This document shows, one piece after another, positions 5,469-64,000 of a stretch of 64,000 bases of DNA. The notes under the pieces are model-generated. The model saw only the letters and a list, made by a program, of their open reading frames with translations, searched no databases and had not been told where the DNA came from. This stretch comes from Myxococcus eversor (GTDB lineage Bacteria > Myxococcota > Myxococcia > Myxococcales > Myxococcaceae), in assembly GCF_010894455.1 (NCBI RefSeq), contig NZ_JAAIXY010000011.1, forward strand, positions 248,001-312,000, given 5' to 3'. A program made the translations under genes and the position numbers. Numbering within the stretch: the stretch's first letter is position 1; each line of letters starts with the position of its first letter.

Positions 5469-5859
5469 CTGACTGCTCCTTCGCGAACTTCGCGTGAGGG
5501 GGAAGCTCCACCAAAGCATCCGTCGATCCCCGAAAGCACGACGCCGCGCGTTGCCACGACATCTGTGCTGCTTTCCAGACAGGGTCTCCGTCGCTACTCG
5601 ACACTGCGATTTCATGCAGACGCAAAACTTGTAGCTCACGAGGAACGCGCACCCACCTCGGCCCACGAGGGGAATCCGCCGGGTAGGGAGCACCTCCCCG
5701 CTTGCAACAGAAAACATCCAGGCGTGATTGGAAATTCTGTTCGAGGGGTGAAACTCAAACAGGCAAGGAATCCACCCCCAGGCGTTCTTTGAATCAAGAG
5801 GCACGGGGCGAGGCGGAGCGGTGGTACTGGCTTGATTATTCCAAGGCCTGGCCTGGGGG
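5469..5859. promoter_or_regulatory. Divergent upstream region between the 70-aa orphan and the FAD monooxygenase
   Basis: About 390 bases without a supported gene, more A+T-rich than the surroundings (notably 5560-5640 and 5700-5800). It must hold the promoters of both divergent neighbours. I could not identify a convincing -35/-10 pair or operator. Confidence 0.4.
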
Positions 5860-7527
5860 ATGAATCAAAGGCAGTTCAACAAGCACGGCACCCGGAGGGC
5901 GGACGTGGCTCCAGAAACTGTTGATGTCATCATCGTGGGATGTGGACCGGTCGGAGCGATGGCAGCCAATCTGCTGGGGCTCCAAGGCGTGAGGACCCTG
6001 GTGGTGGAGAAGGAGCTGTCCGCGCATGGGCAGTCCCGCGCCATCAGCGTGGACGACGAGGCCCAGCGCATCTTCCAGTCCGCGGGACTGGAGGGCGAGC
6101 TGGGGCCGGGCTTCCATCCGTGCCACACGCTGCGCTACCTCGACGACCGCCTGCGCTCGCTCGCGGAGGTGGACTTCGCGGGGTTGGATCAACCGTACGG
6201 CCACTACGTGGGGGCCTTCTTCCAGCAGCCGCGCATGGAGGCGGGGCTGCGGCGGGGGATGGCGCGCTTCGAACACGTGGAGCTGTGGCAGGGCCGCGAG
6301 GTCGAGTCCTTCGTGCAGGATGGCGAGGGGCTCAACGTGCGCGTGCGCGAGTGCGGCACCGACAAGTCCGTGACGGTGCGCGCGCGCTACCTGCTGGCCT
6401 GCGACGGCGCCCACAGCTCCATCCGCCGCAAGCTGGACCTCAAGCTGGAGGGCACCACCGCGCTGGAGCACTCGCTGGCGATCACGGTGAGCACCACGTC
6501 GCCGGAGCCCGACTACACCAGCTACCTGTGCGGACCGAACCGTCGGGGCTTCATCGCGCGCACCGCGCGGGACGAGATGCGCTTCGACCTGATTGTCGAC
6601 CCGGGCGCGGACCTGGAGGCCGTGCGGCAGCCGGACCACGTGCGCTCGCTCATCGCGCACTACATCGACCCGGCGACGGTGACCATCCGCTCCGTCAACG
6701 TCCACTCGTACCACAGCCGGCTCGTGGACCGCTGGAGGGTGGGGCGCGCGTTCCTGCTCGGTGACGCCGCGCACCTGATGCCGCCCTTCCTGGGCCAGGG
6801 CCTGTGCGCGGGCTTCCGCGACGCGGCGAACCTGACCTGGAAGCTGGCGCGAGTCCTCGACGGCTCGGCGGACGACTCGCTCCTGGACACGTACGAGCAG
6901 GAGCGCCGGGGCCACGTCGCGGAGGTCATCAAGAGCTCGGACGCCATGGGCCGGGCGATGATGACCGGCGGCCAGGTGCTGGCGCGCGCGCGCAACGTGC
7001 TCATCCAACTGCTCTACCGCCTGCCCGTCACCGGGGAGTTCATCCGCCAGTTCAAGGTGAAGCCCGCATTCGCGCTGGAGAAGGGCTTCATCCTCGGCAC
7101 GCAGCGGGCGAAGGCCGCGCCGGAGGGCACCTACTTCCCGCAGCCCCATGTCGAGGCCTCCGAAAACCAGCGGGTGCTGATGGACCACGTGATCGGCGAC
7201 GGCTTCGTGGTGCTGACGCGGCCCGGGGCCTCGCAGGACACGCAGCGGGAGGCGCGCGCGCTGGCGGCCGAGCTGGGCGCGCGGGCCTGGTCGGTGCTCT
7301 CCGCGGAGCGCATCGGCGAGCCGCCCGCGGACGCGTTCGTGGACACGGAGGGCCGGCTGAGCGCGTGGTTCAAGCACCACGACAAGGACGTGGTGGTGCT
7401 GCGTCCGGACCGCTACGTGTACGGCACGTCGAACGGCCCCAGCCTGGACGGGCTCCGCCGCTCGCTGCGCGGACTCATCCGTCCCAGGCCTTCGGGCGGC
7501 TCCACCGAGGTCCGCCGCGCCGGGTGA
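5860..7527 (+). CDS. FAD-dependent aromatic-ring monooxygenase (MhpA/PheA-like)
   Basis: Class A flavoprotein hydroxylase that uses NAD(P)H and O2 to hydroxylate an aromatic or polyketide ring. 555 aa. N-terminal Rossmann motif GCGPVG at residues 27-32 with a following VVEKE acidic end; the DG motif CDGAHSSIRR near 184; and the GD motif LLGDAAHLMPPFLGQG near 303, which binds the FAD ribityl chain. The C-terminal ~130 residues form the thioredoxin-like tail seen in MhpA and phenol hydroxylases. The ATG at 5860 follows GGGGG at short distance. It stands alone, convergent with the diiron protein gene, so the substrate cannot be read from context; 3-(3-hydroxyphenyl)propionate-type phenols or a secondary metabolite are both possible. 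Confidence 0.85.
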   Translation: MNQRQFNKHGTRRADVAPETVDVIIVGCGPVGAMAANLLGLQGVRTLVVEKELSAHGQSRAISVDDEAQRIFQSAGLEGELGPGFHPCHTLRYLDDRLRSLAEVDFAGLDQPYGHYVGAFFQQPRMEAGLRRGMARFEHVELWQGREVESFVQDGEGLNVRVRECGTDKSVTVRARYLLACDGAHSSIRRKLDLKLEGTTALEHSLAITVSTTSPEPDYTSYLCGPNRRGFIARTARDEMRFDLIVDPGADLEAVRQPDHVRSLIAHYIDPATVTIRSVNVHSYHSRLVDRWRVGRAFLLGDAAHLMPPFLGQGLCAGFRDAANLTWKLARVLDGSADDSLLDTYEQERRGHVAEVIKSSDAMGRAMMTGGQVLARARNVLIQLLYRLPVTGEFIRQFKVKPAFALEKGFILGTQRAKAAPEGTYFPQPHVEASENQRVLMDHVIGDGFVVLTRPGASQDTQREARALAAELGARAWSVLSAERIGEPPADAFVDTEGRLSAWFKHHDKDVVVLRPDRYVYGTSNGPSLDGLRRSLRGLIRPRPSGGSTEVRRAG

Positions 7528-7559
7528 TGCGAGGGCAGGGGACTGCGTGAAATGACGAC

Positions 7560-7593
7560 GGGGCGCCCAGGCCGAGATGGCCCGAGGCGCCCC
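7560..7593. terminator. Bidirectional hairpin between convergent genes
   Basis: Perfect 8-bp stem GGGGCGCC / GGCGCCCC with an inner GGCC...GGCC pairing, located between the stop of the monooxygenase and the stop of the convergent diiron protein gene. No strong T-run. Confidence 0.6.
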
Positions 7594-7619
7594 GAAGTGT
7601 TCTTCGCCAGCAGGTGAGG

Positions 7620-8369
7620 TCAGGCCGCCGCGGCGGGCTTGAGCATGCCCTGGGCGCGCTCGACACAGTCGCCCATGAAGCGCAGGTAGATGTCGAGCGC
7701 CTGGGCGCCCGTCTTGCCGATGACCTCGGCCTTCTCGGGGACCTGGGTCAGCAGCTTGCCGAGCATCACCTCGTTGAGGGCGGTGTGGCCCACGTCGATT
7801 TCGGCGTGCTCCTTCACGAAGGACATCGCCTCCATGATGTCTTCGCCACATACGCGCTTGGCCTGAGCCATCAGTCCGGGCGCGAAGACGACCGACAGGT
7901 TCTCGATTTCATATTCAATCGCGACCTGGGCGGCGGGCATGGGCCCGACGATGGTGTCCTCGTGGATCTTCCGGTAGTCCACCATGGACTGCGTGGGCGC
8001 CTGGTTCAGCAGGGCGTTCGCGTCCAGCTGGGGGGCGCGCCTGGCGTTCCACCGGGCGACGAGGCTCTTGGTGTCCTCGATCATCATCAGGTGGTGGCCT
8101 TCCTCGTGCTTCGCGTGGGTGATGAGCTTCTCGCCCACGTCCTTGAGGCCCATCTTCACGGTGGCCTCGCCAGCGCGGCGAATCCAGCCGTCCACCGGCT
8201 CCGTCATGTACACGCCCAGCGAGTTGAGCTGGATGAGGAAGCCTTCCACGAGCGCCGGGTCCACGTTCGGATCCAACAGCGTCTGGAGCGCGGGAGAGGA
8301 CTTGAGGCGCTCGCGGACTTCGACCACGTGGGGAACGTACTTCTGCTCCACGAGTTGCTTGTTGCTCAT
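7620..8369 (-). CDS. Heme-oxygenase-like diiron (HDO/TenA-type) protein
   Basis: All-helical 249-aa protein of the heme-oxygenase-like superfamily. The C-terminal helix carries H188-x3-D192-x2-H195, the metal motif of heme-oxygenase-like diiron oxidases such as CADD and SznF; Glu156 lies 32 residues before it, the same gap as the bridging Glu in CADD. An acidic/His cluster THAKHEEGHH at residues 84-93 supplies the remaining ligands. This suggests a non-heme diiron centre rather than heme binding, but the substrate is unknown. ATG 8369 has AGAGGT about 6 bases upstream. It lies 20 bases after the PilZ-acetyltransferase gene and is surely co-transcribed with it. TenA-like thiaminase activity is less likely: no thiamine gene is nearby. 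Confidence 0.72.
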   Translation of the reverse strand: MSNKQLVEQKYVPHVVEVRERLKSSPALQTLLDPNVDPALVEGFLIQLNSLGVYMTEPVDGWIRRAGEATVKMGLKDVGEKLITHAKHEEGHHLMMIEDTKSLVARWNARRAPQLDANALLNQAPTQSMVDYRKIHEDTIVGPMPAAQVAIEYEIENLSVVFAPGLMAQAKRVCGEDIMEAMSFVKEHAEIDVGHTALNEVMLGKLLTQVPEKAEVIGKTGAQALDIYLRFMGDCVERAQGMLKPAAAA

Positions 8370-50424: not shown

Positions 50425-51483
50425 ATGAGCCAGCAACCTCGTCCCGTCAACACCGCTCCTGTCGCTCCCAGCCCGTCTCCTCCGCCCGCGGTCGTGATGA
50501 CCCAGATGGTCTACGGCTTCTGGGTCTCCCGCAGCCTGCAGATCATGGCGGAGCTTGGTATCGCGGACACCATTGGTGAGGTGCCGAAGACAGTGGAGGA
50601 ACTCGCGCAGGCCAGCGGCACCCATGCTCCGGCGCTCCGACGCATGCTCCGACTCCTGACCGGCCTGGGGGTGCTGGTCAAGGACGAGCAGAGCCAGCGC
50701 TTCGGGCTCACGGAGCTGGGCCACATGCTGCGCAAGGACAGCCCCGGCTCGGTGTACGGCTCACTGCGCGCGCACGGCCACCTGCTGTCGTGGCAGGCGT
50801 GGGGAGACCTGGCGTCGTCGCTGAAGACGGGCCAGCCCTCGGTGGAGAAGTTCATGGGGGACAGCTTCTTCGGCTACATGTCCAAGCATCCGGAGGACGC
50901 GGCCATCTTCAACGGCAGCATGGCCGCGTATCAGAGCCTCAATGCTCCGGCGGTGGTGGGCGCGTATGACTTCTCCACCGCGAAGTCCGTGGTGGACGTG
51001 GGCGGTGGAACGGGCACGTTGCTGGCGCACATCCTCCAGTCCCATCCGAACCTCCGGGGCGCGCTCTTCGAGCTGCCGCACGTCAAGGCGGAGGCCACCG
51101 CGCGCCTGTCGAACCTGGGCGTGGCGCCGCGCGCCGAGGTGCTGGAGGGCAACTTCTTCGAGAAGATTCCGTCGGGCCACGACATCTACATCCTGTCGCA
51201 GATCCTCCACGACTGGGACGACGAGCGCAGCCTGAAGATCCTCACCAACATGCGCGAGGCGATGCACCCCGGAGCGAAGCTGCTCATCGTGGAGACGGTG
51301 CTGCCGGGCGACAACGTGCAGCACTTCGGCAACCTCTACGACATGGCCATGCTGGTGCTGGTGGGCGGCCAGGAGCGCACTGGAGCGGAGTACACCGCGC
51401 TGGTGGAGAAGGCCGGGCTGCGCATCCACCGCGTGCTGCCGACGTACATGCCGCCCAGCGTGGTGGAGGTCGTCCCCGCCTGA
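50425..51483 (+). CDS. SAM-dependent O-methyltransferase (plant-type caffeate/hydroxyindole family)
   Basis: 352 aa. An N-terminal dimerisation winged helix (~25-105) precedes the catalytic domain. SAM motif VVDVGGGTGTLLAHIL near residue 190, and ILHDWDDERSLKIL near 256, whose His is the catalytic base in this family. Typical for methylation of phenols, polyketides and other secondary metabolites. The first ~20 residues are Pro-rich. Single gene, divergent from the 2OG oxygenase and followed by a 221-base gap. Confidence 0.88.
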   Translation: MSQQPRPVNTAPVAPSPSPPPAVVMTQMVYGFWVSRSLQIMAELGIADTIGEVPKTVEELAQASGTHAPALRRMLRLLTGLGVLVKDEQSQRFGLTELGHMLRKDSPGSVYGSLRAHGHLLSWQAWGDLASSLKTGQPSVEKFMGDSFFGYMSKHPEDAAIFNGSMAAYQSLNAPAVVGAYDFSTAKSVVDVGGGTGTLLAHILQSHPNLRGALFELPHVKAEATARLSNLGVAPRAEVLEGNFFEKIPSGHDIYILSQILHDWDDERSLKILTNMREAMHPGAKLLIVETVLPGDNVQHFGNLYDMAMLVLVGGQERTGAEYTALVEKAGLRIHRVLPTYMPPSVVEVVPA

Positions 51484-51704
51484 GTCCAACGGCCCGCGGC
51501 CCGGCGTTGCATTTCGCGCCGGGCCGTTGCCCCGAGGGTGGCATCGTTCCACGGTCCGGGTGGGGGTGGACCCCGGACACGACGTCGAGGCGCGCACCGG
51601 AAGGCAATGCGGGCTTCGCTCGGTGGCCCGGCGAGCGGCCGGCCAGGAAATCGACGGGGGCGGTTTTCGGAGGGAATCAGGCTCGATTAGAGTCCGGGGC
51701 GACG

Positions 51705-52529
51705 ATGACGCCCTTCTTCGACGCCATCCTCGCGTTTCCGACCGCGATCTTCACCACGGCAATGGGCGTGGTGCTCACATATTGGCTGTTCGTCATCATC
51801 GGAGCGGTGGGTATCGACCTGCTCGATGGCGGTCACGTCGACTTCGAATCTGGCGGAAAGGCACTGGGCGCGGCGTTCGAGGGCGGGGGCAAGGCCCTGG
51901 CCGGGACGCTGGAAGGTGGAGCGAAGGCGGCGGGCGAGGCCATCCAGGGCGGCGGCAAGGCCATGGGCGCGCATGACCACGACGCGCACATGGAGGGCGG
52001 CATCCTCTCCACGCTGGGCTTCGCGGGCATTCCGCTCACGGTCTCAGTGAGCCTCGTCTCGTTCTTCTCGTGGTTCCTGTCGCTCCTGGCCACGCCTCCC
52101 GCGCACGCGCTGCTGGGTGGCGTGCTGCCTTCGTGGCTGCTCAACAGCACGGTGGGGATTCTCTGCTTCATCGCGGGGCTGGTGATTTCGGGCGTCGCCG
52201 TGCGGCCCCTGCGCCCCGTCTTCGTGGCGCGCAAGGCGCCGGGGCGCGACTCGCTGATGGGCCGGGTGTGCACCATCTCCAGCGGCGGCGTCACGGACCG
52301 CAACGGCCACGCGACGTTCGAGGACGGCGAGGCGGGCTTCATCCTGAACGTGGTCTGCTCGAAGAAGAACGGGCTCAAGCGGGGAGATCCCGCGCTGGTG
52401 CTGTCGTACGACGCCCAGCGGGATGTCTACGAGGTGGAGCCCGTGGACTGGCTGTTGCCGGAAGAGATGGACCAGCTTCGCGACCCCACGCGGGCCGCGG
52501 CGCTGGCCCGCTCGCGAGCGCGCACATGA
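51705..52529 (+). CDS. Membrane protein with C-terminal OB fold (YqiJ/NfeD-like) and an 11-residue glycine repeat
   Basis: 274 aa from ATG 51705. A first membrane helix (~15-37), then four 11-residue Gly/Lys/Ala repeats (~50-93), two more membrane helices (~105-130 and ~142-165), and a cytoplasmic OB-like domain (~175-250) with GRVCTISSGGVTDRNGHATF and VCSKKNGLKRGDPALVL. YqiJ/NfeD-type proteins are usually encoded next to flotillins and act with them at membrane microdomains; here the flotillin gene follows. The repeat between the helices is not part of the usual family description. Confidence 0.8.
   Translation: MTPFFDAILAFPTAIFTTAMGVVLTYWLFVIIGAVGIDLLDGGHVDFESGGKALGAAFEGGGKALAGTLEGGAKAAGEAIQGGGKAMGAHDHDAHMEGGILSTLGFAGIPLTVSVSLVSFFSWFLSLLATPPAHALLGGVLPSWLLNSTVGILCFIAGLVISGVAVRPLRPVFVARKAPGRDSLMGRVCTISSGGVTDRNGHATFEDGEAGFILNVVCSKKNGLKRGDPALVLSYDAQRDVYEVEPVDWLLPEEMDQLRDPTRAAALARSRART
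51852..51983 (+). repeat. Four 11-residue (33-base) repeats
   Basis: Units GGKALGAAFEG, GGKALAGTLEG, GAKAAGEAIQG and GGKAMGAHDHD follow one another without gaps in the OB-fold membrane protein. Eleven-residue periodicity with spaced small and hydrophobic residues suggests an amphipathic, membrane-lying or glycine-zipper helix. Confidence 0.8.
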
Positions 52530-52655
52530 CTTGAGTCGAGGCGCGGTCCGCTCAGGGGGGCGGACCGTGTGTGGATTCGACGCCAGAGGGCTTTCGCGGG
52601 GGATCTCTGGCGCCTGATACAAGGCCCGCTGTCAATACTTCACAGGAAAAAGGCC

Positions 52656-54815
52656 ATGGATCCCATCACCTTGGTAGCCGCCGTCGGCGGAGGCGTCATC
52701 CTCCTCACGGGCATCGTCCTGACCATCGTCCGCCTGTACCGGCAGGTGGATCAGGGCAAGGTGCTCATCGTCAACACGTTGAAGACCGAGCCCCTGGTGA
52801 CGTTCACCGGCGCGGTGGTCTTCCCCATCATCAACCGGGCCGAGGTGATGGACATCGCGCTGAAGACGGTTGAAATCGACCGTCGCGGCAAGGAAGGCCT
52901 CATCTGCCAGGACAACATCCGCGCGGACATCAAGGTCACCTTCTTCGTGCGCGTGAACAAGACGCGTGAGGACGTGCTCAAGGTCGCCCAGTCCATCGGC
53001 TGCGTGCGCGCCAGCGACCAGGAGACGCTCGAGAAGCTCTTCGAGGCCAAGTTCTCCGAGGCCCTCAAGACGGTGGGCAAGAACTTCAACTTCGTGGACC
53101 TCTACACGAAGCGCGCGGAGATCAAGGACAACGTGGTGGAGGTGATTGGCCGGGACCTCAACGGCTACATGCTGGAGGACTGCGCCATCGACTATCTGGA
53201 GCAGACCCCGGTCGAGATGCTCGACAAGGACAACATCCTCGACGCCGAGGGCATCCGGAAGATCACCAAGCTCACCACCGAGCAGAACATCGTCACCAAC
53301 GAGCTGCGCCAGACGGAGCGCCAGGCGGTGACGAAGCGCAATGTGGAAGCCGACCAGAGCATCTTCGAGCTGGAGCGTCAGCGTGAAGAGGCCTCCGCGA
53401 AGCAGCGGCGCGCCATTGAAACGGTGCAGGCCGAGGAGTCCGCGGAGACGGAGCGCGTGAAGCAGGAGCAGTACTCCAAGGCGCAGCTCGCCCGCATCAA
53501 GGCGGAGCAGGAGATCCTCGTCCAGGAGCAGAACAAGTCGCGCGACGTGGAAGTGGCCCAGAAGCACCGCGAGCGCGAAGTGGGAGTCGAGGCGGAGAAC
53601 GTGGAGCGCGCCCGCTCGCTGGCGGCCATCAGCCGGGAGCGTGAGACGGAGCTGGAGCGCATCGACAAGGAGAAGGCGCTCGAGGAGCAGAAGAAGAACA
53701 TCGCCGACGTGGTGCGCGCCCGCATCGCCGTGGAGAAGACGGTGGCGCAGGAGGAGGAGCGCATCAAGGACCTGCGCGTGGAGTCCGACGCCCTTCGCAA
53801 GAAGCAGGCGATCATCATCAACGCCGAGGCCCAGGCGCAGGAGAAGACCGTCAAGGACGTGAACGGCGCCAAGGCCAACAGCGAGATGGCGGTGTTCATG
53901 GCGAAGGAGAAGCTCACCCTCGCCGAGGCGGACCTCGAGGCCGCCGACAAGACGGCCAAGGCGAAGATGCGGCTGGCCGACGGCATCCAGGCCGAGTCCG
54001 CCGCCGAGGGCCTGGCGGGCATCCGCGTGAAGGAAGCGGACGCCGCGGCCACGGAGAAGCTGGGCATGGCGCAGGTGCGCGTGAAGGAGGCGGAGGCCGG
54101 CGCGATTGAAAAGCAGGGCCACGCGCAGGCGCAGGTCGTCCGCGAGCGGCTGCTGGCGGAGGCCGCGGGTGAGCAGGAGAAGGGCATCTCCCGGGCTCGC
54201 GTGCAGGAGGCCGAGGCGGTGGCCATCCACAAGCGCGGCGAGGCGGAGGCCTTCGCCAAGAAGGAGATGCAGCTCGCCGAGGCGTCGGCCATCCAGGAGA
54301 AGCTGTTCGCCGAGGCCCGGGGCCTCGCGGAGAAGGCGGCGTCCATGAAGCTGATGGACGGCGTGGGCCGCGAGCACGAGGAGTTCCGCCTCAAGCTCAA
54401 CAAGGAGCGCGACATCGAGCTGGAGACCATCCGCGTGCGCAAGGACATCGCCCACGCGCAGGCCGAGGTGCTGGCCAAGGCGTTCGCCAACGCGAAGTTC
54501 AACATCGTCGGTGGCGACGGCCAGTTCTTCGAGCGCTTCGTCAAGGCGGTGTCGTTCGGCACCGCGGTGGACGGCGCGTTGGACCATGGCGAGGCCCTGA
54601 AGACGGCGCTGGGGGGCTACCTCAACGGCGAGAAGGACCTGCCGGCGGACCTCAAGGAGATCCTCTCCAAGCCGGGTCTGAGCAACGACGCGCAGAACCT
54701 GGCGGTGGCGGCGCTGCTGCACCGCATGACGCCCGGCCCGGCGGACGTGGGGGCGAACCTGAAGGCGCTCGTGGGCGCCGAGGGCAAGTCGTCCACCACC
54801 GACAAGCAGGGCTGA
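52656..54815 (+). CDS. Flotillin family protein (YqiK-type)
   Basis: 719 aa from ATG 52656 (AGGA eight bases upstream). One N-terminal membrane helix (~5-28), an SPFH/band-7 domain (~30-200; KVLIVNTLKTEPLVTFTGAV), then a long coiled coil (~220-600) with the Ala-Glu-rich repeats of flotillins (EKLGMAQVRVKEAEAGAIEK). The C-terminal ~110 residues form a separate small domain. Flotillins scaffold lipid microdomains; YqiK-type members pair with OB-fold membrane proteins such as the upstream gene. The giant ATPase follows 152 bases later on the same strand. Confidence 0.9.
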   Translation: MDPITLVAAVGGGVILLTGIVLTIVRLYRQVDQGKVLIVNTLKTEPLVTFTGAVVFPIINRAEVMDIALKTVEIDRRGKEGLICQDNIRADIKVTFFVRVNKTREDVLKVAQSIGCVRASDQETLEKLFEAKFSEALKTVGKNFNFVDLYTKRAEIKDNVVEVIGRDLNGYMLEDCAIDYLEQTPVEMLDKDNILDAEGIRKITKLTTEQNIVTNELRQTERQAVTKRNVEADQSIFELERQREEASAKQRRAIETVQAEESAETERVKQEQYSKAQLARIKAEQEILVQEQNKSRDVEVAQKHREREVGVEAENVERARSLAAISRERETELERIDKEKALEEQKKNIADVVRARIAVEKTVAQEEERIKDLRVESDALRKKQAIIINAEAQAQEKTVKDVNGAKANSEMAVFMAKEKLTLAEADLEAADKTAKAKMRLADGIQAESAAEGLAGIRVKEADAAATEKLGMAQVRVKEAEAGAIEKQGHAQAQVVRERLLAEAAGEQEKGISRARVQEAEAVAIHKRGEAEAFAKKEMQLAEASAIQEKLFAEARGLAEKAASMKLMDGVGREHEEFRLKLNKERDIELETIRVRKDIAHAQAEVLAKAFANAKFNIVGGDGQFFERFVKAVSFGTAVDGALDHGEALKTALGGYLNGEKDLPADLKEILSKPGLSNDAQNLAVAALLHRMTPGPADVGANLKALVGAEGKSSTTDKQG

Positions 54816-54838
54816 TTCGGGCGGCAGCAGCACAGGGT

Positions 54839-54864
54839 CCGCCTTCGCGCGAGCGCGAGGGCGG
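54839..54864 (+). terminator. Hairpin between flotillin and AAA+ ATPase genes
   Basis: CCGCCTTCGCGC pairs with GCGCGAGGGCGG (12 positions, one T-G) about 25 bases past the flotillin stop, without a T-run. A second stem CGTCCC / GGGACG (54909-54931) follows. They may partly separate expression of the two genes. Confidence 0.4.
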
Positions 54865-54967
54865 GCATGGCGTCACGACGACCTCGCCCCCAGGCCTTCC
54901 GGGGCGCGCGTCCCTCCCATCGGGCGGGACGGGGGCGGGGTCCCCGCTAAATTTCCGGTGAGCACTC

Positions 54968-57900
54968 ATGGCAACTGACGGTGGCAAGGGCGCGGCGCCC
55001 ACGGGCGAGACGGCGCTAGAGGGGGGGAGCTACGAGGTCATCCGGACGCGCCTCCTGGCACAGGCGGACGTGCTGGGCGCGAAGGCGAACGACCTCAATG
55101 CGCGGCGCAAGGCGTTCTTCGGCGGCTCGGAGCTGGCGGTCACCGGCAACGAGCGGGTGCGCACCGAGAACAACTGCGTGGCGCGCGACATCGTCAGCGT
55201 CGGCAAGTACCTGCTCTTCGGCTACAACGTCTTCATCGGATTGAAGAAGGAGACGTCCGTCGCGGATGTCTTCTCGCTGCACCGCTTCGAGAAGACGGCC
55301 GACGGGTTTGATTTGTCCGCGGTGCCGCACACGGAGGCGGGCGGCTTCCTGGCGGACCCGCGCTTCATCAAGGACTTCAGCGAGCTGTACCGGTACTACA
55401 AGGACGCGAAGCTCCTGCAGCTGCGGCGCAAGGACGCTCGCCTGTTGGCCATCTTCCAGACGGGCCAGACGGCTCGTGACTTGAAGGTGTTCCGCTTCAA
55501 CCTGGACACGGAAGGGCGCGCCACCTACCTGGACAACCAGGGAGAGAAGGACCACGTCTTCCCCCCGTCCCACGACTTCGAGTGGACGGTGGCCACGCGC
55601 GAGAACTACGTGCTGGGCCAGCACCCGCACGTCAACGTGTTGGACCAGGTGTTCGTGGAGACGGTGAAGGGCGACCTCACCGTCAAGGTGGAGAACAACA
55701 CCTCGTCCGGCCTTGGTATCTACAGCGAGCCGGTGGAGGACGCGAACCAGTCGCTGGACGACGCGCGGTTCGCCTGGGCCAAGGTGGGCACGCTCATCCT
55801 CATTCGCGTGCTGCCCTTCCGCGAGAAGGCCCAGCGCTACCTGGTGTTCAACTCGCGCACGCAGCACGTGCTGCGCATCGACGCCATCGGCCAGGCCTGC
55901 ATCCGGCTGCCCGAGGACCAGGGCATCATCTTCCCCGGCGGGTACTACCTCCAGACGGGCGACTACAAGGTCTTCGACGGTGAGGCCACCGGCTCGGGGA
56001 TGGAGTTCAAGCACGTCATCCGCTCGCCGAACGGAGAAGACGTGCTCTACATCTTCCACCAGCGCGAGGAGGGCCGGTACCTGCTCTTCCCGTACAACCT
56101 GGTGCGCAAGGAGGTGCAGAACCCGCTGGTGTGCAACGGCTACAGCCTCTTCGCGGACGGCGGGCTGGTGGTGTTCCGCGAGACGTCGCAGGAGCCCACG
56201 CGCGTGCACCCCATGCAGGTGTGGCAGACGCCCTTCGTGTCGGACGAGCACGCGGCGTCGGTGCCCGCGGCGCCCGGCTACCTGGGCAAGGTGGGCAACG
56301 CGGAGTTGGTGCGCGGCATCTCCGACGCGCTGACGATTCAGCGCGTCGCGAAGACGGACAAGCCCAACCGCCGCACGTACGAGGACCTGGTCGCCGCGGC
56401 CACGCGCGCGCTGGATGCGTACTACTGGCTGGGCCACGCGGAGACGGGTCTGCAGGAGCCCGTGGAGCTCCTGCGCCGGACGTCCGAGCTCATCATCGAT
56501 GAGTTCGAGAAGGTGCTCGCCCTCCAGAAGCGCGCGTTCGAGTCGCTGGCGGAGGCGGAGAAGGCGCAGACGAAGCTGCTGGGGCGCGTGCAGCCGGAGC
56601 TGCTCACCTCGGCCGAGGAGTTCATGCACGTGCTGGCGGAGCTGCGCCAGCAGCGCGGCCACCTCATCACGCTGAAGGACATCCGCTACATGGACCTGGG
56701 GCGCGTGGACGCCCTGGAGAAGGCGGTGGTGGAGGCGTCCGACAACACCAGCTCCGGCTGCGTGGACTTCCTCCAGAAGGGCGAGGCGCTGCAGCCCCTG
56801 GCCGCGCGCCTGGACGAGCTGCTCGCGAAGCTGGAGCCGGTGAAGACCACGGTGGAGCTGGCGCCGCTGGGCGAGGACATCGAGAAGACGGCCCAGGGCC
56901 TCACGGTGCTGGGTGAAGTCGTGGGTGGGCTCCAGGTGGGAGACCCGCTGGCGCGCGCCCGCATCCTGGAGGGCATCTCCGAGCTGTTCGGTCGGCTCAA
57001 CCGCGTGCGCGCGAGCCTCGCCGCCAAGCGCAAGGAGCTGTCCAGCCGGGAGAAGCGCGCGGAGTTCGGCGCCCAGTTCAAGCTGTTGGGGCAGGCGATT
57101 GAAAACGCGCTGGCCCAGGCGGACCTGCCGGAGAAGTGCGACGAGGGGCTATCGCGCCTCACGGTGCAGTTGGAGGAGCTGGAAGGGCGCTTCGGGGAGT
57201 TCGACGAGTTCCTCGGGCAGATCACCCAGAAGCGCGAGGAATTGCTGGAGGCGTTCGGCGCCCGCAAGCAGACGCTGGTGGACGAGCGGCAGCGTCGGGC
57301 GCAGAGCCTCTTCGGCGCGGCGGAGCGCATCCTCCAGGGCGTGCAGCGCCGCTCCAAGACGTTCAAGTCGGATGACGAGCTGAACGGGTACTTCGCCACC
57401 GACGCGATGATCCTCAAGCTGCGCCAGCTCTCCGAGCAGCTCCTGGGACTCCAGGACAGCGTGCGCTCGGACGAGGTGCTGTCGCGGCTCAAGTCCGCCA
57501 AGCAGGACGCGCTGCGGGCGCTGCGCGACAAGCAGGACCTGTTCGCGGATGGCGATTCGCTCATCAAGCTGGGCACCTACCGCTTCAACGTCAACACGCA
57601 GCCACTGGACCTGACGCTGGTGCCGCGCGACGGCGCGCTCTACCTCCAGCTCACCGGCTCCGACTACGCGCAGAAGCTGGAGGACCCGGAGCTGCTCAAG
57701 CACCAGGGCCTCTGGGAGCAGCACCTCGTCTCCGAGACGCGGGACGTGTACCGCGTGGAGTACCTGGCCTCCTGCATCCTCTCCGACGCGGAGGACGGCA
57801 AGGGCGGGCTGACGCTGTCCTCGCTGCACGAGGCGGTGATTGCAGGCACGCTGCTGGAGAAGGTGCGCGCCTACGCGGCGGACCGCTTCGACGAGGGCTA

Positions 57901-60481
57901 CGAGCGCGGCGTGCATGACGTGGACGCGGCGGCGGTGCTGGAGAAGCTCCTGACGCTGCACCAGGGCGCGGGCCTCCTGCGCTTCGCGCCGGTGCCTCGG
58001 GCGTGGGCCTCGTTGTACTGGGCCTTCGATACCGACGAGGCCGCGCGGACGCTGTTGCACCGTCGGGCGCGAAGCCTGGCGCGGCTGCGGCAGACGTTCT
58101 CCTCCGTCGGAAGCCTGTCCGAGCTGGGGCTCGCGCTGGGCGAGGCCGTGGAGGCGTTCCTCAAGGCGCAGGGGCTGGCGCACTCGCCGGCGGAGGCGCG
58201 CCAGGCCGGGCGCTACCTGGTGGAGGAGCTGGCCGTGGACCGGCCCCGCTTCACCACGAGCGGCGAGGCGGTGGTGCTGCGCGACGCGTTCCTGGCGCAG
58301 TTGGAGCGGCAGGGCACGCGGACCGCCTTCGAGGAGGACCTGCGCGGGCTGGAGAAGGACCTGTCCGCGCGGCTGCTCATCGCCAAGGCGTGGGTGGAGG
58401 CGTATCTGGCCCAGCGCGAAGGCGGCCCCGGTGACGCGGGCTACTTCGCACTGGAGACGGCGGTGCTGCTGCTCACCGAGCGCAAGCTTGACCGTGAGCC
58501 CGCGGGCGCGCTGACAGCGGCCGAGGTGTCAGGCCTGTTGGGCAGTCACTCGCGCGTGCACGACCGGAAGCTGTCCTTGCGCCTGGATGAGTTCCTGGCG
58601 CGCCTGGGCGAGTTCCGTCAGCTCCGCGTGCCGCAATACCAGACATACCGGGGGCTGCTCCGGGACTTGCTGGAGCGCGAGCGCCGCAAGCTGCGCCTGG
58701 AGGAGCTGACGCCGAAGGTGCTGTCGTCGTTCGTGCGCAACCGCCTCATCGACGAGGTGTACCTGCCGCTCATCGGCGCCAACCTGGCCAAGCAGTTGGG
58801 CGCGGCGGGCGAGGGCAAGCGCACGGACCGGATGGGCATGCTGCTGCTCATGTCGCCTCCGGGCTACGGCAAGACGACGTTGATGGAGTACGTGGCGAGC
58901 CGGCTCGGCCTCACCTTCGTCAAGGTGAACGGCCCCGCGCTGGGCCACTCGGTGAAGTCGCTGGACCCGGCGGAGGCGCCCAACGCCACGTCGCGGCAGG
59001 AGGTGGAGCGCATCAACCTGTCCTTCGAGATGGGCAACAACGTGATGCTCTACCTCGACGACATCCAGCACACGGACCCGGAGCTGCTCCAGAAGTTCAT
59101 CTCGCTCTGCGACGGCCAGCGCCGCGTGGAGGGCGTGTGGAACGGCCGGACGCGCACCTATGACCTGCGCGGCAAGAAGTTCTGCGTGGTCATGGCCGGC
59201 AATCCCTACACGGAGACGGGTGAGCGCTTCCGCATTCCGGACATGCTCGCCAACCGCGCGGACACCTACAACCTGGGTGAGATTCTCGATGGGAAGGAGC
59301 ACCTGTTCGCGCTGAGCTATCTGGAGAACGCGCTGACCTCCAACCCGGTGACGGCGCCGCTGGCCACGCGTGACGCGGCGGACACGCACCGCCTCCTCCG
59401 CATGGCGCAGGGCGAGGAGGTGCCCGCGGGCGAGCTGAAGCACGGCTACGCGGCGGCGGAGCTGCAGGAGATCATCGCCATCTTCCAGCGGATGTTCCGG
59501 GTGCAGTCGGTGCTGCTGAAGGTGAACATGCAGTACATCGCCTCGGCGGCGCAGGATGAGCGCTTCCGCGCGGAGCCCGCCTTCAAGCTCCAGGGCTCCT
59601 ACCGCAACATGAACAAGCTGTCGGAGAAGCTCGTCGCGGCCATGACGGACGCGGAGCTGGAGCGGCTGATCGACGACCACTACCAGGGCGAGTCCCAGAC
59701 GCTCACCACCGCGGCCGAGCAGAACCTGCTCAAGCTGGCGGAGATGCGCGGACGCCTGACGCCGGAGAAGGCGAAGCGGTGGGAGGACATCAAGCAGGGC
59801 TTCGCGCGCGTCAAGCGCATGGGGGGCAAGGAGGACGACCCCGTGGCCCGCGTCACCGGCCAGCTCAGCGGAATCGAGGAGCAGCTCGGCGCCGTGCGAG
59901 ACGCGGTGCGGGACGCGGCCACCCTGGTGCAGCAGGGCTCGGCGGATCGGAACGAGGACCCGACGGCCGAGGCGCTGCCGTACCTGGAGGCCCTGCGCGA
60001 CGCGGTGCTGGAAGTGGCGAAGGTGGGGCGCGAGGTGAAGGACACGCCTGCGCCTCTTCCGGTGGCCCCGCCCGCGCCGGCGCAGGACCTGGCGCCGTAC
60101 CTCAAGCACCTGGCCCAGCTCCTCAAGGCGCTCACCGAACGCGTGGCGACGGCCTCCCAGGCGCCCGTGGTCCAGCAGGCGCCGGCCCAGGACTTCGGGC
60201 CGTACATGGAGCAGCTCTCCCGGGCGCTCGCCGCGCTGGCGGACCGGCCGGTGAACGTGTCCGCGCAGATGCCCGCGGAGGCGCTCCAGCGCGCCGCCGT
60301 AGCCGGGCCGTCTCCGGCGGAGCTGAGTCGGCAGATTGAATTGGTGGAGGGCGTGCTGTTGCCCCTGGAGCGGGCCTCCCGTCGCGCGGTGCAGGGCGAG
60401 GGTGAGAACGTGAAGTCGCTCCAGGTCTGGCAGAACGTCACCGAGGCGCTGGAGCTGCTGCGCTCCATGCTGCGTCGGTAG
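54968..60481 (+). CDS. Giant flotillin-associated AAA+ ATPase ('DNA repair ATPase' family)
   Basis: 1837 aa. Residues ~1-460 look beta-rich and propeller-like (repeated YLVF/YLLF strands, e.g. FREKAQRYLVFNSRTQ, EEGRYLLFPYNLV). Helical and coiled-coil segments follow (~500-870), then a helical region up to ~1270. The AAA+ domain is MoxR-like: Walker A SPPGYGKTT near 1295, Walker B VMLYLDDIQH near 1359, sensor-1 region VVMAGNP near 1407, and FRIPDMLANRAD, which contains the arginine-finger position. The tail (~1600-1837) has a short internal duplication (APAQDLAPYLKHLAQLLKAL / APAQDFGPYMEQLSRALAAL). No signal peptide or membrane helix, so it is cytoplasmic and may dock on the flotillin. The 'DNA repair' name of such proteins is, as far as I know, not backed by biochemistry. 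Confidence 0.82.
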   Translation: MATDGGKGAAPTGETALEGGSYEVIRTRLLAQADVLGAKANDLNARRKAFFGGSELAVTGNERVRTENNCVARDIVSVGKYLLFGYNVFIGLKKETSVADVFSLHRFEKTADGFDLSAVPHTEAGGFLADPRFIKDFSELYRYYKDAKLLQLRRKDARLLAIFQTGQTARDLKVFRFNLDTEGRATYLDNQGEKDHVFPPSHDFEWTVATRENYVLGQHPHVNVLDQVFVETVKGDLTVKVENNTSSGLGIYSEPVEDANQSLDDARFAWAKVGTLILIRVLPFREKAQRYLVFNSRTQHVLRIDAIGQACIRLPEDQGIIFPGGYYLQTGDYKVFDGEATGSGMEFKHVIRSPNGEDVLYIFHQREEGRYLLFPYNLVRKEVQNPLVCNGYSLFADGGLVVFRETSQEPTRVHPMQVWQTPFVSDEHAASVPAAPGYLGKVGNAELVRGISDALTIQRVAKTDKPNRRTYEDLVAAATRALDAYYWLGHAETGLQEPVELLRRTSELIIDEFEKVLALQKRAFESLAEAEKAQTKLLGRVQPELLTSAEEFMHVLAELRQQRGHLITLKDIRYMDLGRVDALEKAVVEASDNTSSGCVDFLQKGEALQPLAARLDELLAKLEPVKTTVELAPLGEDIEKTAQGLTVLGEVVGGLQVGDPLARARILEGISELFGRLNRVRASLAAKRKELSSREKRAEFGAQFKLLGQAIENALAQADLPEKCDEGLSRLTVQLEELEGRFGEFDEFLGQITQKREELLEAFGARKQTLVDERQRRAQSLFGAAERILQGVQRRSKTFKSDDELNGYFATDAMILKLRQLSEQLLGLQDSVRSDEVLSRLKSAKQDALRALRDKQDLFADGDSLIKLGTYRFNVNTQPLDLTLVPRDGALYLQLTGSDYAQKLEDPELLKHQGLWEQHLVSETRDVYRVEYLASCILSDAEDGKGGLTLSSLHEAVIAGTLLEKVRAYAADRFDEGYERGVHDVDAAAVLEKLLTLHQGAGLLRFAPVPRAWASLYWAFDTDEAARTLLHRRARSLARLRQTFSSVGSLSELGLALGEAVEAFLKAQGLAHSPAEARQAGRYLVEELAVDRPRFTTSGEAVVLRDAFLAQLERQGTRTAFEEDLRGLEKDLSARLLIAKAWVEAYLAQREGGPGDAGYFALETAVLLLTERKLDREPAGALTAAEVSGLLGSHSRVHDRKLSLRLDEFLARLGEFRQLRVPQYQTYRGLLRDLLERERRKLRLEELTPKVLSSFVRNRLIDEVYLPLIGANLAKQLGAAGEGKRTDRMGMLLLMSPPGYGKTTLMEYVASRLGLTFVKVNGPALGHSVKSLDPAEAPNATSRQEVERINLSFEMGNNVMLYLDDIQHTDPELLQKFISLCDGQRRVEGVWNGRTRTYDLRGKKFCVVMAGNPYTETGERFRIPDMLANRADTYNLGEILDGKEHLFALSYLENALTSNPVTAPLATRDAADTHRLLRMAQGEEVPAGELKHGYAAAELQEIIAIFQRMFRVQSVLLKVNMQYIASAAQDERFRAEPAFKLQGSYRNMNKLSEKLVAAMTDAELERLIDDHYQGESQTLTTAAEQNLLKLAEMRGRLTPEKAKRWEDIKQGFARVKRMGGKEDDPVARVTGQLSGIEEQLGAVRDAVRDAATLVQQGSADRNEDPTAEALPYLEALRDAVLEVAKVGREVKDTPAPLPVAPPAPAQDLAPYLKHLAQLLKALTERVATASQAPVVQQAPAQDFGPYMEQLSRALAALADRPVNVSAQMPAEALQRAAVAGPSPAELSRQIELVEGVLLPLERASRRAVQGEGENVKSLQVWQNVTEALELLRSMLRR

Positions 60482-60498
60482 TCGCCGGGCCTTCTCGA

Positions 60499-60531
60499 GG
60501 CCGGGGCTCGACGGTGTGTCGAGCCTCGGCC
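60499..60531. terminator. Bidirectional terminator between the ATPase and expansin genes
   Basis: GGCCGGGGCTCGAC pairs with GTCGAGCCTCGGCC (14 positions, one G-T), loop GGTGT, between the two convergent stops. Confidence 0.72.
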
Positions 60532-60550
60532 CTCCAGAAGAAGGTCCAGG

Positions 60551-61249
60551 TCAGCGGAACTGGGCGGAGCCCTCGAAGGTATCGTCGTCCATGACGCGGG
60601 GCAGGGTGTCCTCCACCTGCTCACCGGTGGTCGACGTCACGCGCACGGTGAAGGAGCCTTCGCCCATGCCGCTGTCGTTGACGAAGTAGTTGTAGTCCTG
60701 GCGCGGGACGTCCTTCCACGCGCCGTCGCCGCGACGCCACTCCAGCTTGGAGATGGGCACGCGGTGGTTGCGCACCTGGATGGCGGTCCACCACGGGTTG
60801 CTGCCGTTCTTGAAGTGGTACTCCAGGCCACCGGCCACGTCGCAGGAGACCACCTTCCAGGTGATGTCCACGCGGCCCAGGCGCATCTCGGCGATCTTCG
60901 CGAAGGCCTCGCGGCTCAGGTCCAGGTGGCCGGCCTCGCACTCCGGACACCTGTCGACGATTCGAACCCGCACGTTGCCGCTGGGGCCCTGGATGTCCAC
61001 GCACTGGCCACACGCCGCGCTGTTGGCGTACTGCGGGGTGTTCATCGCGGCCACCATCAAGTCGTTGGGGCTGGCGTCGTAGCTGCAATTCCCCGCGCCC
61101 GTGGCGTCGTAGTACGTCGCGATGCCCTTCTGCTCCTCGCCCAGGGGCACACCTCCGCCGCTGGGGTCATCACTGCATCCGCCACACGCGAGGAAGAGCG
61201 TGGCCATGGGAACGAGCAGACGTCGGGAGGGCAGGTGGGATGGGCGCAT
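60551..61249 (-). CDS. Expansin-like lipoprotein
   Basis: 232 aa from ATG 61249. N-terminal signal ending LFLACGG, a lipobox-like end, so the protein is probably lipid-anchored and exported. Domain 1 (~25-125) is a double-psi barrel with GIATYYDATGAGNCSYDA, ACGQCVDIQG and the acidic active-site region RCPECEAGHLDLSREAF; HLDLS contains the Asp needed by bacterial expansins. Domain 2 (~130-230) is CBM63-like, with the aromatic platform NPWWTAIQVRN and YNYFV. Bacterial expansins loosen cellulose or peptidoglycan without hydrolysis. Cysteines are plentiful, as in secreted expansins. Confidence 0.86.
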   Translation of the reverse strand: MRPSHLPSRRLLVPMATLFLACGGCSDDPSGGGVPLGEEQKGIATYYDATGAGNCSYDASPNDLMVAAMNTPQYANSAACGQCVDIQGPSGNVRVRIVDRCPECEAGHLDLSREAFAKIAEMRLGRVDITWKVVSCDVAGGLEYHFKNGSNPWWTAIQVRNHRVPISKLEWRRGDGAWKDVPRQDYNYFVNDSGMGEGSFTVRVTSTTGEQVEDTLPRVMDDDTFEGSAQFR

Positions 61250-61376
61250 ACGTCCCGAAGGATACCGCAACGCGTCCGCGCGGTGCCTGGCCCTCGTTCA
61301 CGGAAATGTCGATGCAATGACTTGCAGGACTGTTAGCGTGCCGCCGCTTTCAAACGAACAAGGGGGTCGTCACGTC

Positions 61377-62078: not shown

Positions 62079-63941
62079 CTACTCGCCGCGGGCGGAAGCG
62101 CCGGACAGCGCGCGGGCCTGCGACACCAGCTTGACGAACTCGTTGCGGTCCGCGTCACCAGCGGCGGCGCCCTCGGCGAGCTTCTGCGTGGTGGCCAGGC
62201 TCCAGCCCTCGGCGGCCGGGTTGCCCCGGAGGATGTCCGCGGTGGAGGCGACGGCCAGGGCGAAGCGGAAGTCAGGCGAGGAGGCCTCCACCGAGGCGCG
62301 CAGCAACGAGCGCTCGAAGGGGAAGGACTGCTCGGCGGCCTCGGTGCCGTTGGGCGCCTTGGCGCGCACTCGCACGGTGGCGAGCGACTCCTTCGAGTCC
62401 TTCACCAGCTCCACCTCGTACAGCGCGGTGACGTTGTGGCCCGCGCCAATCTCACCCGCGTCCACCTTGTCGTTGCGGAAGTCGTTGTCCGCCACGTCCC
62501 GGTTCTCGTAGCCCATCAGGCGGTAGCGGCGCACGGCGGCGGGGTTGAACTCCACCTGGAGCTTCACGTCCTTGGCGATGACCTCCAGCGTGCCGGTGAG
62601 CTGCGTCTCGAAGACCTTCTTCGCCTCCTTGAAGCTGTCCACGTAGAAGCAGTTGCCGTTCCCCTTGTCCGCGAGCTTCTCCATCATGTCGTCGCGGTAG
62701 TTGCCCATGCCGAAGCCCACGGCGGTGAGGGTGACGCCCTCGGCCACGTACTTGTGGATGCTCTCCAGCATCGCCTGCGGGCTCAGCGTGGGGCCGATGT
62801 TGGCGTCGCCGTCGGTGAGGACGATGACTCGGGAGACGACCTTGCCAGAGGCCTTCTTCACCGCGTGCTTGTAGGCCAGCTCCATGCCGGTGCCCATCGC
62901 GGTGCCGCCACCGGACTGGAGCGTGTCCAGCGCGGCGTGGATGGTCTTCACGTCCGTGGCCGGCGTCGGCGCCAGCACCTCACGCGTGGAGCCCGCGTAG
63001 GTGACGATGGCCACCGTGTCGTTCTCGTTGAGGTTCTTCACGGCGATCTTGATGGCCTCCTTGGCGAGCGGCAGCTTGTCCTGCGACGCCATGGAGCCGC
63101 TGGTGTCCACCAGGAACACCAGGTGCGCCTGCTTGCGCTGCGAGCGCGAGACGACCTTGCCCTGCACGCCCACGCGCACGAAGTGGCGCTTCGAGTCGAA
63201 GGGCGACGGCGCGGCCTCCAGGTGCACCGTGAAGGCGCCCGTCTCCGGCGGGGTGTAGCGGTACTTGAAGTAGTTGACGAACTCCTCGACGCGCACGGCG
63301 GAGGAGGGCGGCAGGTTGCCGTTCTGGAGGTAGCGGCGGGCCACCGTGTACGACGCGGTGTCGACGTCCGCGGCGAACGTGGACAGCGGGTCCTTGCTCG
63401 TCTCGGTGAAGCTGTTGGGCTTCCAGGCCTCGAAGGTGTTGCCCTGCCGCGGGCCACCGGTGTCCACCCCGTCCAGGTCCTTCTCCGTGAGGCGGGCGCT
63501 GGCCTCGAGCTTCTTCGTGGGGGCCATCCGGGAGGGCTTCGCCGGCGGAGGACCCTGGACACTTCCGATGACGCCACCGGCCACCGCGCCTCCTCCCAGC
63601 GTGGCGGTGGCGGGCGCGGCCATCATGGGCTCGGGGGCGGGTGCCTCACGCATCATCTCCGCCTCGATGCCTCGGGGCGCCTTCATGGCCCGGTCCTCTT
63701 TGGGCTGCGCGGCCACGGTCTTCCTCTGGTCCGTGCTCCCCTCGTCGGCGGCGAAGTCCTGGGGCGAGGCGCTCGGAGGCGGGGCCGCCTCGGCGTTGGC
63801 CTGGGCGGTGGGGCGCGCTTCGGCGGCCCTCAGGCCCTGCTTCTCGTTCTGGGATGAGGAGGAGCATGCCGGCAGGACACAGGCGACGAGCAGGGCACTT
63901 CCCCACTGGGTCAAACGGCGCTTCAGGAAGGTCTGGGACAT
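62079..63941 (-). CDS. von Willebrand factor A domain lipoprotein (YfbK-like)
   Basis: 620 aa from ATG 63941, preceded by GGAG five bases upstream. Lipoprotein signal with LPACSSSS. An Ala/Pro/Met-rich disordered region (~30-130) precedes the N-terminal YfbK-type domain (TFAADVDTASYTVARRYL, VEEFVNYFKYRYTPP). The vWA domain (~285-460) has the MIDAS motif VDTSGSMAS, plus the Thr/Asp positions in GGTAMGTGM and VLTDGDANIG. A conserved C-terminal domain ends the protein. MIDAS residues are intact, so metal-dependent protein binding is likely. Cell-envelope located, partner unknown. Confidence 0.9.
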   Translation of the reverse strand: MSQTFLKRRLTQWGSALLVACVLPACSSSSQNEKQGLRAAEARPTAQANAEAAPPPSASPQDFAADEGSTDQRKTVAAQPKEDRAMKAPRGIEAEMMREAPAPEPMMAAPATATLGGGAVAGGVIGSVQGPPPAKPSRMAPTKKLEASARLTEKDLDGVDTGGPRQGNTFEAWKPNSFTETSKDPLSTFAADVDTASYTVARRYLQNGNLPPSSAVRVEEFVNYFKYRYTPPETGAFTVHLEAAPSPFDSKRHFVRVGVQGKVVSRSQRKQAHLVFLVDTSGSMASQDKLPLAKEAIKIAVKNLNENDTVAIVTYAGSTREVLAPTPATDVKTIHAALDTLQSGGGTAMGTGMELAYKHAVKKASGKVVSRVIVLTDGDANIGPTLSPQAMLESIHKYVAEGVTLTAVGFGMGNYRDDMMEKLADKGNGNCFYVDSFKEAKKVFETQLTGTLEVIAKDVKLQVEFNPAAVRRYRLMGYENRDVADNDFRNDKVDAGEIGAGHNVTALYEVELVKDSKESLATVRVRAKAPNGTEAAEQSFPFERSLLRASVEASSPDFRFALAVASTADILRGNPAAEGWSLATTQKLAEGAAAGDADRNEFVKLVSQARALSGASARGE

Positions 63942-64000
63942 GTGTTCTCCGGGGGACGGAATCAACAGGCGCCGCATCGAAACGCACGACCTGACAAATG
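63942..64000 (-). promoter_or_regulatory. Upstream edge of the von Willebrand gene
   Basis: 59 bases to the window end hold the GGAG ribosome-binding site (63947-63950, minus strand). The promoter is probably beyond the edge. Confidence 0.35.

Follow-up and report, generated by a model that had tools for sequence, protein, structure and literature searches.

A myxobacterial copy of an NfeD, flotillin and propeller AAA+ ATPase module, and a possible motor for a subfamily of long flotillins

An operon that combines a Band-7/flotillin protein, a propeller AAA+ ATPase and the membrane protein YqiJ has been described by Ravi et al. (2024, mSystems, PMC11237479), who report a full form, to which a CesT/Tir-PspA dyad is added, and PspA-free short forms that are said to be more widely distributed. 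The locus considered here is a trio of genes in a 64,000-nucleotide stretch of the Myxococcus eversor contig NZ_JAAIXY010000011.1 (in the following called the window; G+C 65-71%, genome size 11.4 Mb), and it is the same in kind as that operon, in the short form. A flotillin, a propeller/coiled-coil AAA+ ATPase and a YqiJ/YuaF-type protein with three transmembrane segments (3TM) are present, and the PspA of the full form was not detected in the window by a PspA model built from two seeds, in a search for PspA alone. The gene set, including its short form, is therefore already in print since 2024, and the description of the system as poorly described, given in the original prediction for this DNA, is half true, as Ravi et al. 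name the set and as mutational studies exist for genes of a related Pseudomonas aeruginosa operon (PMC2587700, PMC10948618, PMC13086221). What is new here is a near-obligate pairing of the ATPase with the flotillin, the independence of the module from PspA in some genomes, the assignment of the ATPase to the MoxR/NorQ type, and a flotillin C-terminal region that on plasmids occurs only together with the ATPase. The accessible main text of PMC11237479 mentions neither Myxococc- nor MoxR nor DUF3686, the last being a Pfam domain of the ATPase, and in the literature searched there was no paper with DUF3686, with PF12458, or with flotillin and 'DNA repair ATPase' together. We consider it probable, without being certain, that the trio is the myxobacterial copy of the operon of Ravi et al. 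and that its ATPase is the motor of the long flotillin, remodelling the flotillin assembly or its clients under envelope stress.

The bac genes of P. aeruginosa, bacABCDEF, form one operon according to reverse-transcription PCR (PMC10948618), in the order YjfI-like BacA, PspA-like BacB, a short NfeD, the flotillin PaFlo3, bacE and bacF (PMC10948618; NfeD and SPFH from PMC13086221). This order matches the module, bacE being likened to the ATPase by its place, but the operon has BacA and BacB (PspA), and beside the window copy no PspA was detected. When PA3731 (BacB) is lost, biofilm formation, swarming, rhamnolipid production and infection of the mouse lung are impaired, and hyperosmotic shock raises the amount of this protein (PMC2587700); in PMC8190622, a table of genes of cystic-fibrosis adaptation lists PA3728 as an ATPase and gives three references for it. 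PaFlo3 has been reported from two further species (PMC13086221), and in one of these, Pseudomonas composti, the module is found together with PspA (L089). Arc3 of P. aeruginosa was considered as a link to PA3729 and rejected, the pull-down enrichment being just 1.3-fold over the control. In Escherichia coli, an NfeD-like membrane protein and a flotillin are likewise encoded in one operon, yqiJ-yqiK (PMC2636767), but unlike the module this pair occurs in a genome without DUF3686, which is absent from all 14 control genomes, E. coli among them, and the E. coli pair thus works without the ATPase.

Relatives of the window ATPase were collected by a contig scan with a profile from nine sequences (the window copy and eight from plasmid records), which gave at least 582 relatives, and the best 80 were kept. 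Ten loci with less than 3.3 kb upstream of the ATPase open reading frame (ORF) were set aside, seven of which nonetheless show a piece of a flotillin gene upstream, and in 68 of the remaining 70 testable loci both the flotillin and the NfeD gene lie upstream of the ATPase on the same strand. As the 80 loci are the closest relatives, genomes were also drawn blind to similarity. DUF3686 was found in 8/299 Pseudomonadota and 8/246 Actinomycetota genomes, each count including a centre genome that had been chosen for having DUF3686, and the non-centre genomes contributed seven loci from Pseudomonadota (7 genomes) and nine from Actinomycetota (7 genomes). The flotillin adjoins the ATPase in 16/16 of these loci and the NfeD-like gene in 15/16. 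A plasmid collection holds 12 records with the ATPase, some of them chromosome-sized, and the 11 that were fetched have the flotillin in 11/11 cases and NfeD in 10/11. The conserved order was seen in loci of six phyla (Myxococcota, Pseudomonadota, Actinomycetota, Planctomycetota, Deinococcota and Bacteroidota), so that the original prediction was right to regard the ATPase as the third component of a real recurrent module: its homologues are reproducibly found beside YqiJ/NfeD and flotillin genes, and not usually alone. Deviations are an interposed stretch in L061 (flotillin 6.3 kb upstream of the ATPase, NfeD not detected), inserted genes in L059 and L060, an undetected NfeD in L047 and L153, and broken reading frames of the ATPase in L143 and L147 and of the flotillin in L150 and L151. 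Two actinobacterial genomes have two module copies each, G646 (L147, L148), with a broken ATPase frame in one copy, and G700 (L150, L151), with a broken flotillin frame in both; a sequencing error is possible in these cases.

In Myxococcota the ATPase-flotillin pairing is near-obligate. Among 193 genomes, the DUF3686 ATPase occurs in 93, the long flotillin in 94 (E 1e-40 or better) and both in 92 (Fisher p 7e-52, uncorrected for shared ancestry), and in the three discordant genomes the contig ends where the partner is due, namely inside the ATPase in G005 (L137), four bases past the flotillin in G088 (L135) and inside the flotillin in G082 (L156). Of the 92 genomes having both genes, 86 have them side by side. 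Two of the six others, G074 and G126, have both genes at contig ends, and the remaining four (G094, G098, G105, G106) are the genomes of one family, f29, that have the ATPase. In all four the ATPase is unlinked from the NfeD-flotillin pair, and both are kept: NfeD and flotillin stay paired with no ATPase in the following 4.1 to 7.6 kb (L132, L134, L136, L158), and the ATPase is found on another contig, where the upstream DNA is free of flotillin genes over 9.6 kb in L131, 8.8 kb in L133 and 5.6 kb in L138; in G094 the ATPase contig carries the ATPase alone. Since both parts have been kept after their linkage was broken, a functional bond between the ATPase and the NfeD-flotillin pair is likely, and the unlinking in this family can be regarded as a natural test of functional linkage. 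Pairwise distances over 51 members, taken without species-tree control, correlate at 0.85 between ATPase and flotillin, 0.77 between ATPase and NfeD and 0.73 between flotillin and NfeD. That the trio is a chance neighbourhood is hardly conceivable, as only single exceptions such as L091 would speak for it, and this explanation was rejected because of the adjacency among the testable, the similarity-blind and the myxobacterial loci, the identical order across six phyla, and the co-retention even when unlinked.

In the window, the three genes follow each other on the plus strand in the order NfeD/YqiJ-like gene, flotillin and ATPase (Table 1), just as they had been read originally, with gaps of 126 bases between the first two and 152 bases between the last two. 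A simple scan of the plus strand from 51400 to 60700 found neither terminator-like sites nor sigma-70-like promoters. The bac operon has been proposed to have a sigma-54 promoter. When the DNA just upstream of NfeD was roughly scanned for such a site, no more than 5/10 bases matched in the window, which is not convincing, and one of 50 other loci reached 9/10; bac-like operons carry the site upstream of bacA, which is outside the region of that scan. Hydropathy marks residues 5-42, 99-131 and 139-170 of the first gene product as hydrophobic, and the protein is thus predicted to have a C-terminal soluble domain and three transmembrane segments, the latter being the 3TM feature of the YqiJ/YuaF type. 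It aligns with the genes at the same position in other phyla at 26-34% identity and with a Hymenobacter gene annotated as DUF1449, and it matches zero Pfam models; three of five relatives scanned gave sub-threshold matches only (YqiJ_N, YqiJ_OB or NfeD) and two gave none. These sub-threshold matches and the DUF1449 alignment weakly suggest an OB fold.

The flotillin ORF is open from a GTG at 52569, and the conservation within the family begins at the ATG that gives a protein of 719 residues. It has a single N-terminal hydrophobic segment by hydropathy and an SPFH/Band_7 match (PF01145, 36.9-41.3 bits), whereas an hmmscan of the whole protein gave no match and a sequence search of solved structures gave weak unrelated matches only. 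A coiled coil was judged by eye from the sequence, and the middle and C-terminal parts are conserved. In the plasmid collection, 318 records encode proteins similar to this flotillin, and the match covers at least 80% of the query in only 12 of them; these 12, and no others, also encode the ATPase. Among the 48 listed of the 306 records with partial matches, the similarity ends at residue 391 or 407. In this collection, the C-terminal part of the flotillin is thus confined to ATPase-bearing records, and because a block of it (ORF residues 581-670) is also conserved over 51 family members, that block is a candidate docking site for the ATPase.

The ATPase itself matches DUF3686 (PF12458, residues 38-486, E 2.8e-204), DUF7902 (PF25472, residues 606-690) and AAA (PF00004, residues 1292-1384). 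With zero hydrophobic 19-mers above 1.6 in the hydropathy analysis it is predicted to be soluble and cytoplasmic, in agreement with the original prediction. Two AlphaFold2 models of its parts were calculated from alignments of 47 and 45 sequences. The propeller-like N-terminus, at first read by eye, is borne out by the first of these (mean predicted local distance difference test score, pLDDT, 88.6), whose best row in the VIA-align comparison is the WD40 domain of DCAF1 (Z 9.8, root-mean-square deviation 6.4 over 219 residues), the other rows listed being mostly propeller proteins; the region that follows is modelled as long helices. For the AAA+ core (mean pLDDT 88.1) the top nine rows are all CbbQ or NorQ, with CbbQ at Z 16.8 (root-mean-square deviation 3.9 over 250 residues) and NorQ at Z 16.5. 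VIA-align was used after a whole-model Foldseek search had returned low TM-scores, and the comparison applies to the families in its listing, outside of which others may exist; a sequence search of solved structures gave AAA-region matches only, among the best 60 of 96 rows. The core model places a beta-hairpin (strands 527-532 and 535-540, model numbering) before the sensor-1 strand 546-552, and a beta-hairpin before sensor 1 is what defines the MoxR type. By its model the core is thus of the MoxR/CbbQ/NorQ type, as the reading by eye had also proposed. The positions of Walker A, Walker B (D-D), sensor 1, the arginine finger and sensor 2, which we take to be these motifs by their customary definitions, are invariant in 45/45 sequences, which shows at the sequence level that the catalytic residues are kept. 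The 12 homologues of the plasmid collection align only up to residues 1612-1668, and full-length matches are mainly myxobacterial.

In public records the protein is named 'DNA repair ATPase', and the Pfam name is 'ATPase involved in DNA repair'. A function in DNA repair is very improbable: beyond these names it could only draw on a weak P-loop similarity to RuvB, Pfam and NCBIfam scans detected neither a DNA-binding nor a nuclease domain, and in every sampled phylum it is membrane proteins that constantly accompany the ATPase. This reading was rejected as one that has only the database name behind it, and the findings rather call that name into question.

The motors closest in fold to the AAA+ core, those of CbbQ-CbbO and NorQ-NorD, comprise about 230-270 residues and act with a separate VWA adaptor (NorD with its VWA domain, and CbbO, which is the VWA adaptor of CbbQ), whereas in the module the motor, a propeller and coiled coils are joined in one protein. 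An adjacent gene for a VWA-domain partner is common among MoxR-type AAA+ proteins, and it is not defining. An AAA+ machine is also combined with an SPFH assembly in FtsH-HflKC, where FtsH is a membrane-anchored protease, whereas the module ATPase has neither a predicted transmembrane segment nor a matched protease domain. The similarity nevertheless brings up membrane-protein quality control, in which the flotillin scaffold would hold unfolded membrane clients and the ATPase would unfold or extract them in a way similar to FtsH-HflK/C. SPFH proteins do partner AAA+ machines elsewhere, as in the case of FtsH with HflKC (PMC2636767), flotillin microdomains of Staphylococcus aureus confine and stabilise unfolded proteins (PMC11222466), and a rhomboid protease gene lies near the module in 12 loci. 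On the other hand, no peptidase family matched the ATPase or the other two proteins at E up to 1 (Pfam and NCBIfam), and the nearest solved AAA cores are remodellers of the MoxR type, so that quality control is a possible function, to be held tentatively.

PspA is the other candidate partner. Ravi et al. have suggested that the short operon uses a PspA that is encoded elsewhere, and the ATPase would then be a bacterial counterpart of Vps4 that recycles ESCRT-III-like PspA polymers. With the two-seed model, PspA was found upstream in 22/70 testable loci, and a clustering of flanking ORFs, of whose 40 largest clusters five were identified by Pfam, placed PspA together with a CesT/Tir-like YjfI/DUF2170 protein in one set of 23 loci, which are without exception gamma- or beta-proteobacterial; compared with the profile count, this cluster adds L040 and L078 and is without L112. 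A Hymenobacter plasmid copy of the module is also accompanied by PspA. No PspA was detected by that model beside the module in myxobacterial, actinobacterial or Deinococcus loci, and the single PspA found in the window's genome is unlinked, on contig C91. Of 25 module genomes, 18 have PspA_IM30 somewhere, which would suit a partner encoded elsewhere, and seven have no match anywhere, namely four xanthomonad isolates (Luteimonas, two Stenotrophomonas, Xanthomonas), two planctomycete metagenome-assembled genomes (MAGs) and one Archangium MAG. The seven of 25 are not a rate, since the genomes were hand-picked mostly for having no adjacent PspA, and the three MAGs may be incomplete; other xanthomonads (Lysobacter L112, L121, L124) have PspA. 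In some genomes the module thus occurs independently of PspA, and the PspA link is probably not universal. That the ATPase is a Vps4-like recycler of PspA is rather unlikely.

In all four PspA-free xanthomonads (L096, L109, L114, L129), a gene for TelA (toxic anion resistance) lies downstream of the ATPase, and TelA may substitute for PspA. The TelA loci are seven in total, L045, L049 and L104 being the others, and PspA was detected beside the module in 0/7 of them. Further recurrent neighbours in the clustering are a phospholipase D-like protein in 14 loci and the rhomboid protease mentioned above (for these and TelA, one member each was confirmed by Pfam).

An anti-phage or other conflict role, which the original prediction had also considered, is improbable. 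It would fit the sparse occurrence outside the Myxococcaceae (the counts for Pseudomonadota and Actinomycetota given above, centre genomes included), the presence in 12 records of the plasmid collection, the TelA or phospholipase D genes that adjoin some copies, and the induction of PA3728-PA3732 upon infection of P. aeruginosa by phage (PMC12041424), which is the one link to phages that was seen. However, matches in PADLOC-DB 2.0.0 (IetA, mad8) are limited to about 30 residues at the P-loop, the best being IetA with E 0.0012 at residues 1291-1321, and a known defence system was therefore rejected. Pfam and NCBIfam detected no effector domain, and the module had no match in phage records. DUF3686 is present in 47/59 genomes of the window's family, with one match each, and the flanking genes of the window copy are kept in some close relatives, unlike what is expected of a mobile defence locus.

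From known SPFH/NfeD pairs, NfeD and the flotillin can be expected to build an SPFH assembly that is anchored to the inner membrane at its cytoplasmic face, and the soluble ATPase would be the cognate motor of this flotillin subfamily. Its propeller and coiled coils may provide the binding arms that in CbbQ/NorQ are supplied by the separate VWA partner, and the docking site of the ATPase would most likely lie in the C-terminal part of the long flotillin, which is conserved, with ATP being spent during envelope stress on disassembling or remodelling the flotillin assembly or the proteins that it holds. In a more far-reaching version, which is doubtful though conceivable, the module is a self-standing SPFH remodelling machine, in which a MoxR/NorQ-type motor with its own propeller adaptor serves a single flotillin subfamily and dismantles or reshapes flotillin cages on the membrane like Vps4 does with ESCRT-III, and PspA is an optional add-on in some bacteria. 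Remodelling of the flotillin assembly and remodelling of clients are regarded as the two likeliest functions, with PspA recycling third and defence and DNA repair unlikely. The module may bear on the disassembly and reshaping of flotillin assemblies in bacteria, as a large AAA+ motor, predicted to be cytoplasmic, accompanies one flotillin subfamily in loci of six phyla, and does so even in the one family where it is unlinked.

Several points weigh against the ATPase as motor of the long flotillin. The contact between the two proteins is one that we infer, the co-occurrence counts are phylogenetically non-independent, and the distance correlations are equally free of a species tree. Within 9.7 kb of the L091 ATPase there is no flotillin gene, the cognate flotillin being encoded elsewhere in that genome. 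The propeller matches (Z about 8-10) indicate a common fold only, and the OB domain of the NfeD-like protein never exceeded the Pfam threshold. Deletion of paFlo3 in P. aeruginosa led to only about 20% less biofilm (PMC13086221), and the module may thus matter little under ordinary conditions.

Table 1. Features of the three-gene module in the window (positions are those of the window).
Feature	Position	Strand	Evidence
NfeD/YqiJ-like membrane protein, 274 aa, from ATG 51705	51705-52529	+	ORF, hydropathy, alignment of same-position homologues, sub-threshold YqiJ/NfeD Pfam matches in 3/5 relatives
Long flotillin, 719 aa from ATG 52656 (ORF open from GTG 52569)	52656-54815	+	ORF, conserved start, SPFH, N-terminal hydrophobic segment
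Flotillin SPFH/Band_7 domain	52743-53174	+	PF01145 match
Flotillin conserved C-terminal block, ORF residues 581-670, candidate ATPase docking site	54309-54578	+	Conservation in 51 members; plasmid records
Propeller-coiled-coil-AAA+ ATPase, 1837 aa	54968-60481	+	ORF, PF12458, PF25472, PF00004
ATPase beta-propeller (modelled), residues 57-422, inside DUF3686 (38-486)	55136-56233	+	AlphaFold2, VIA-align
ATPase long helical, probably coiled-coil region, residues 444-858, includes DUF7902 (606-690)	56297-57541	+	Model, PF25472
ATPase AAA+ core (modelled), residues 1250-1596	58715-59755	+	Model, VIA-align
ATPase Walker A, residues 1297-1303	58856-58876	+	K1302 and T1303 invariant in 45/45 rows
ATPase Walker B region, residues 1360-1368	59045-59071	+	D1364 and D1365 invariant in 45/45 rows
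ATPase C-terminal tail, residues 1651-1837, mostly beyond the part common across phyla	59918-60478	+	Homologue alignments

Downstream of the module, two genes in the window lie on the opposite strand. An expansin of the EXLX1 family (NF041144, 270 bits; 60551-61270, minus strand) directly follows the ATPase in antisense orientation and is found at the equivalent position in L050, which belongs to Myxococcus sp. RHSTA-1-4, and in L051 and L075. A VWA/YfbK-type gene (62079-63977, minus strand), 1.6 kb downstream of the ATPase, is probably unrelated to the module. It was considered as a MoxR partner, which is unlikely as it is antisense, has a lipoprotein-like N-terminus from which export of the protein may be expected, and has BLASTP matches only in L051 and L075 and a 25% match in L064. 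In L061, the region between flotillin and ATPase (4032-8184) encodes a DUF11 protein and a member of the OmpA family that contains thrombospondin type 3 repeats, and a relative of this OmpA-family protein (32% identity) also adjoins the ATPase in L137.
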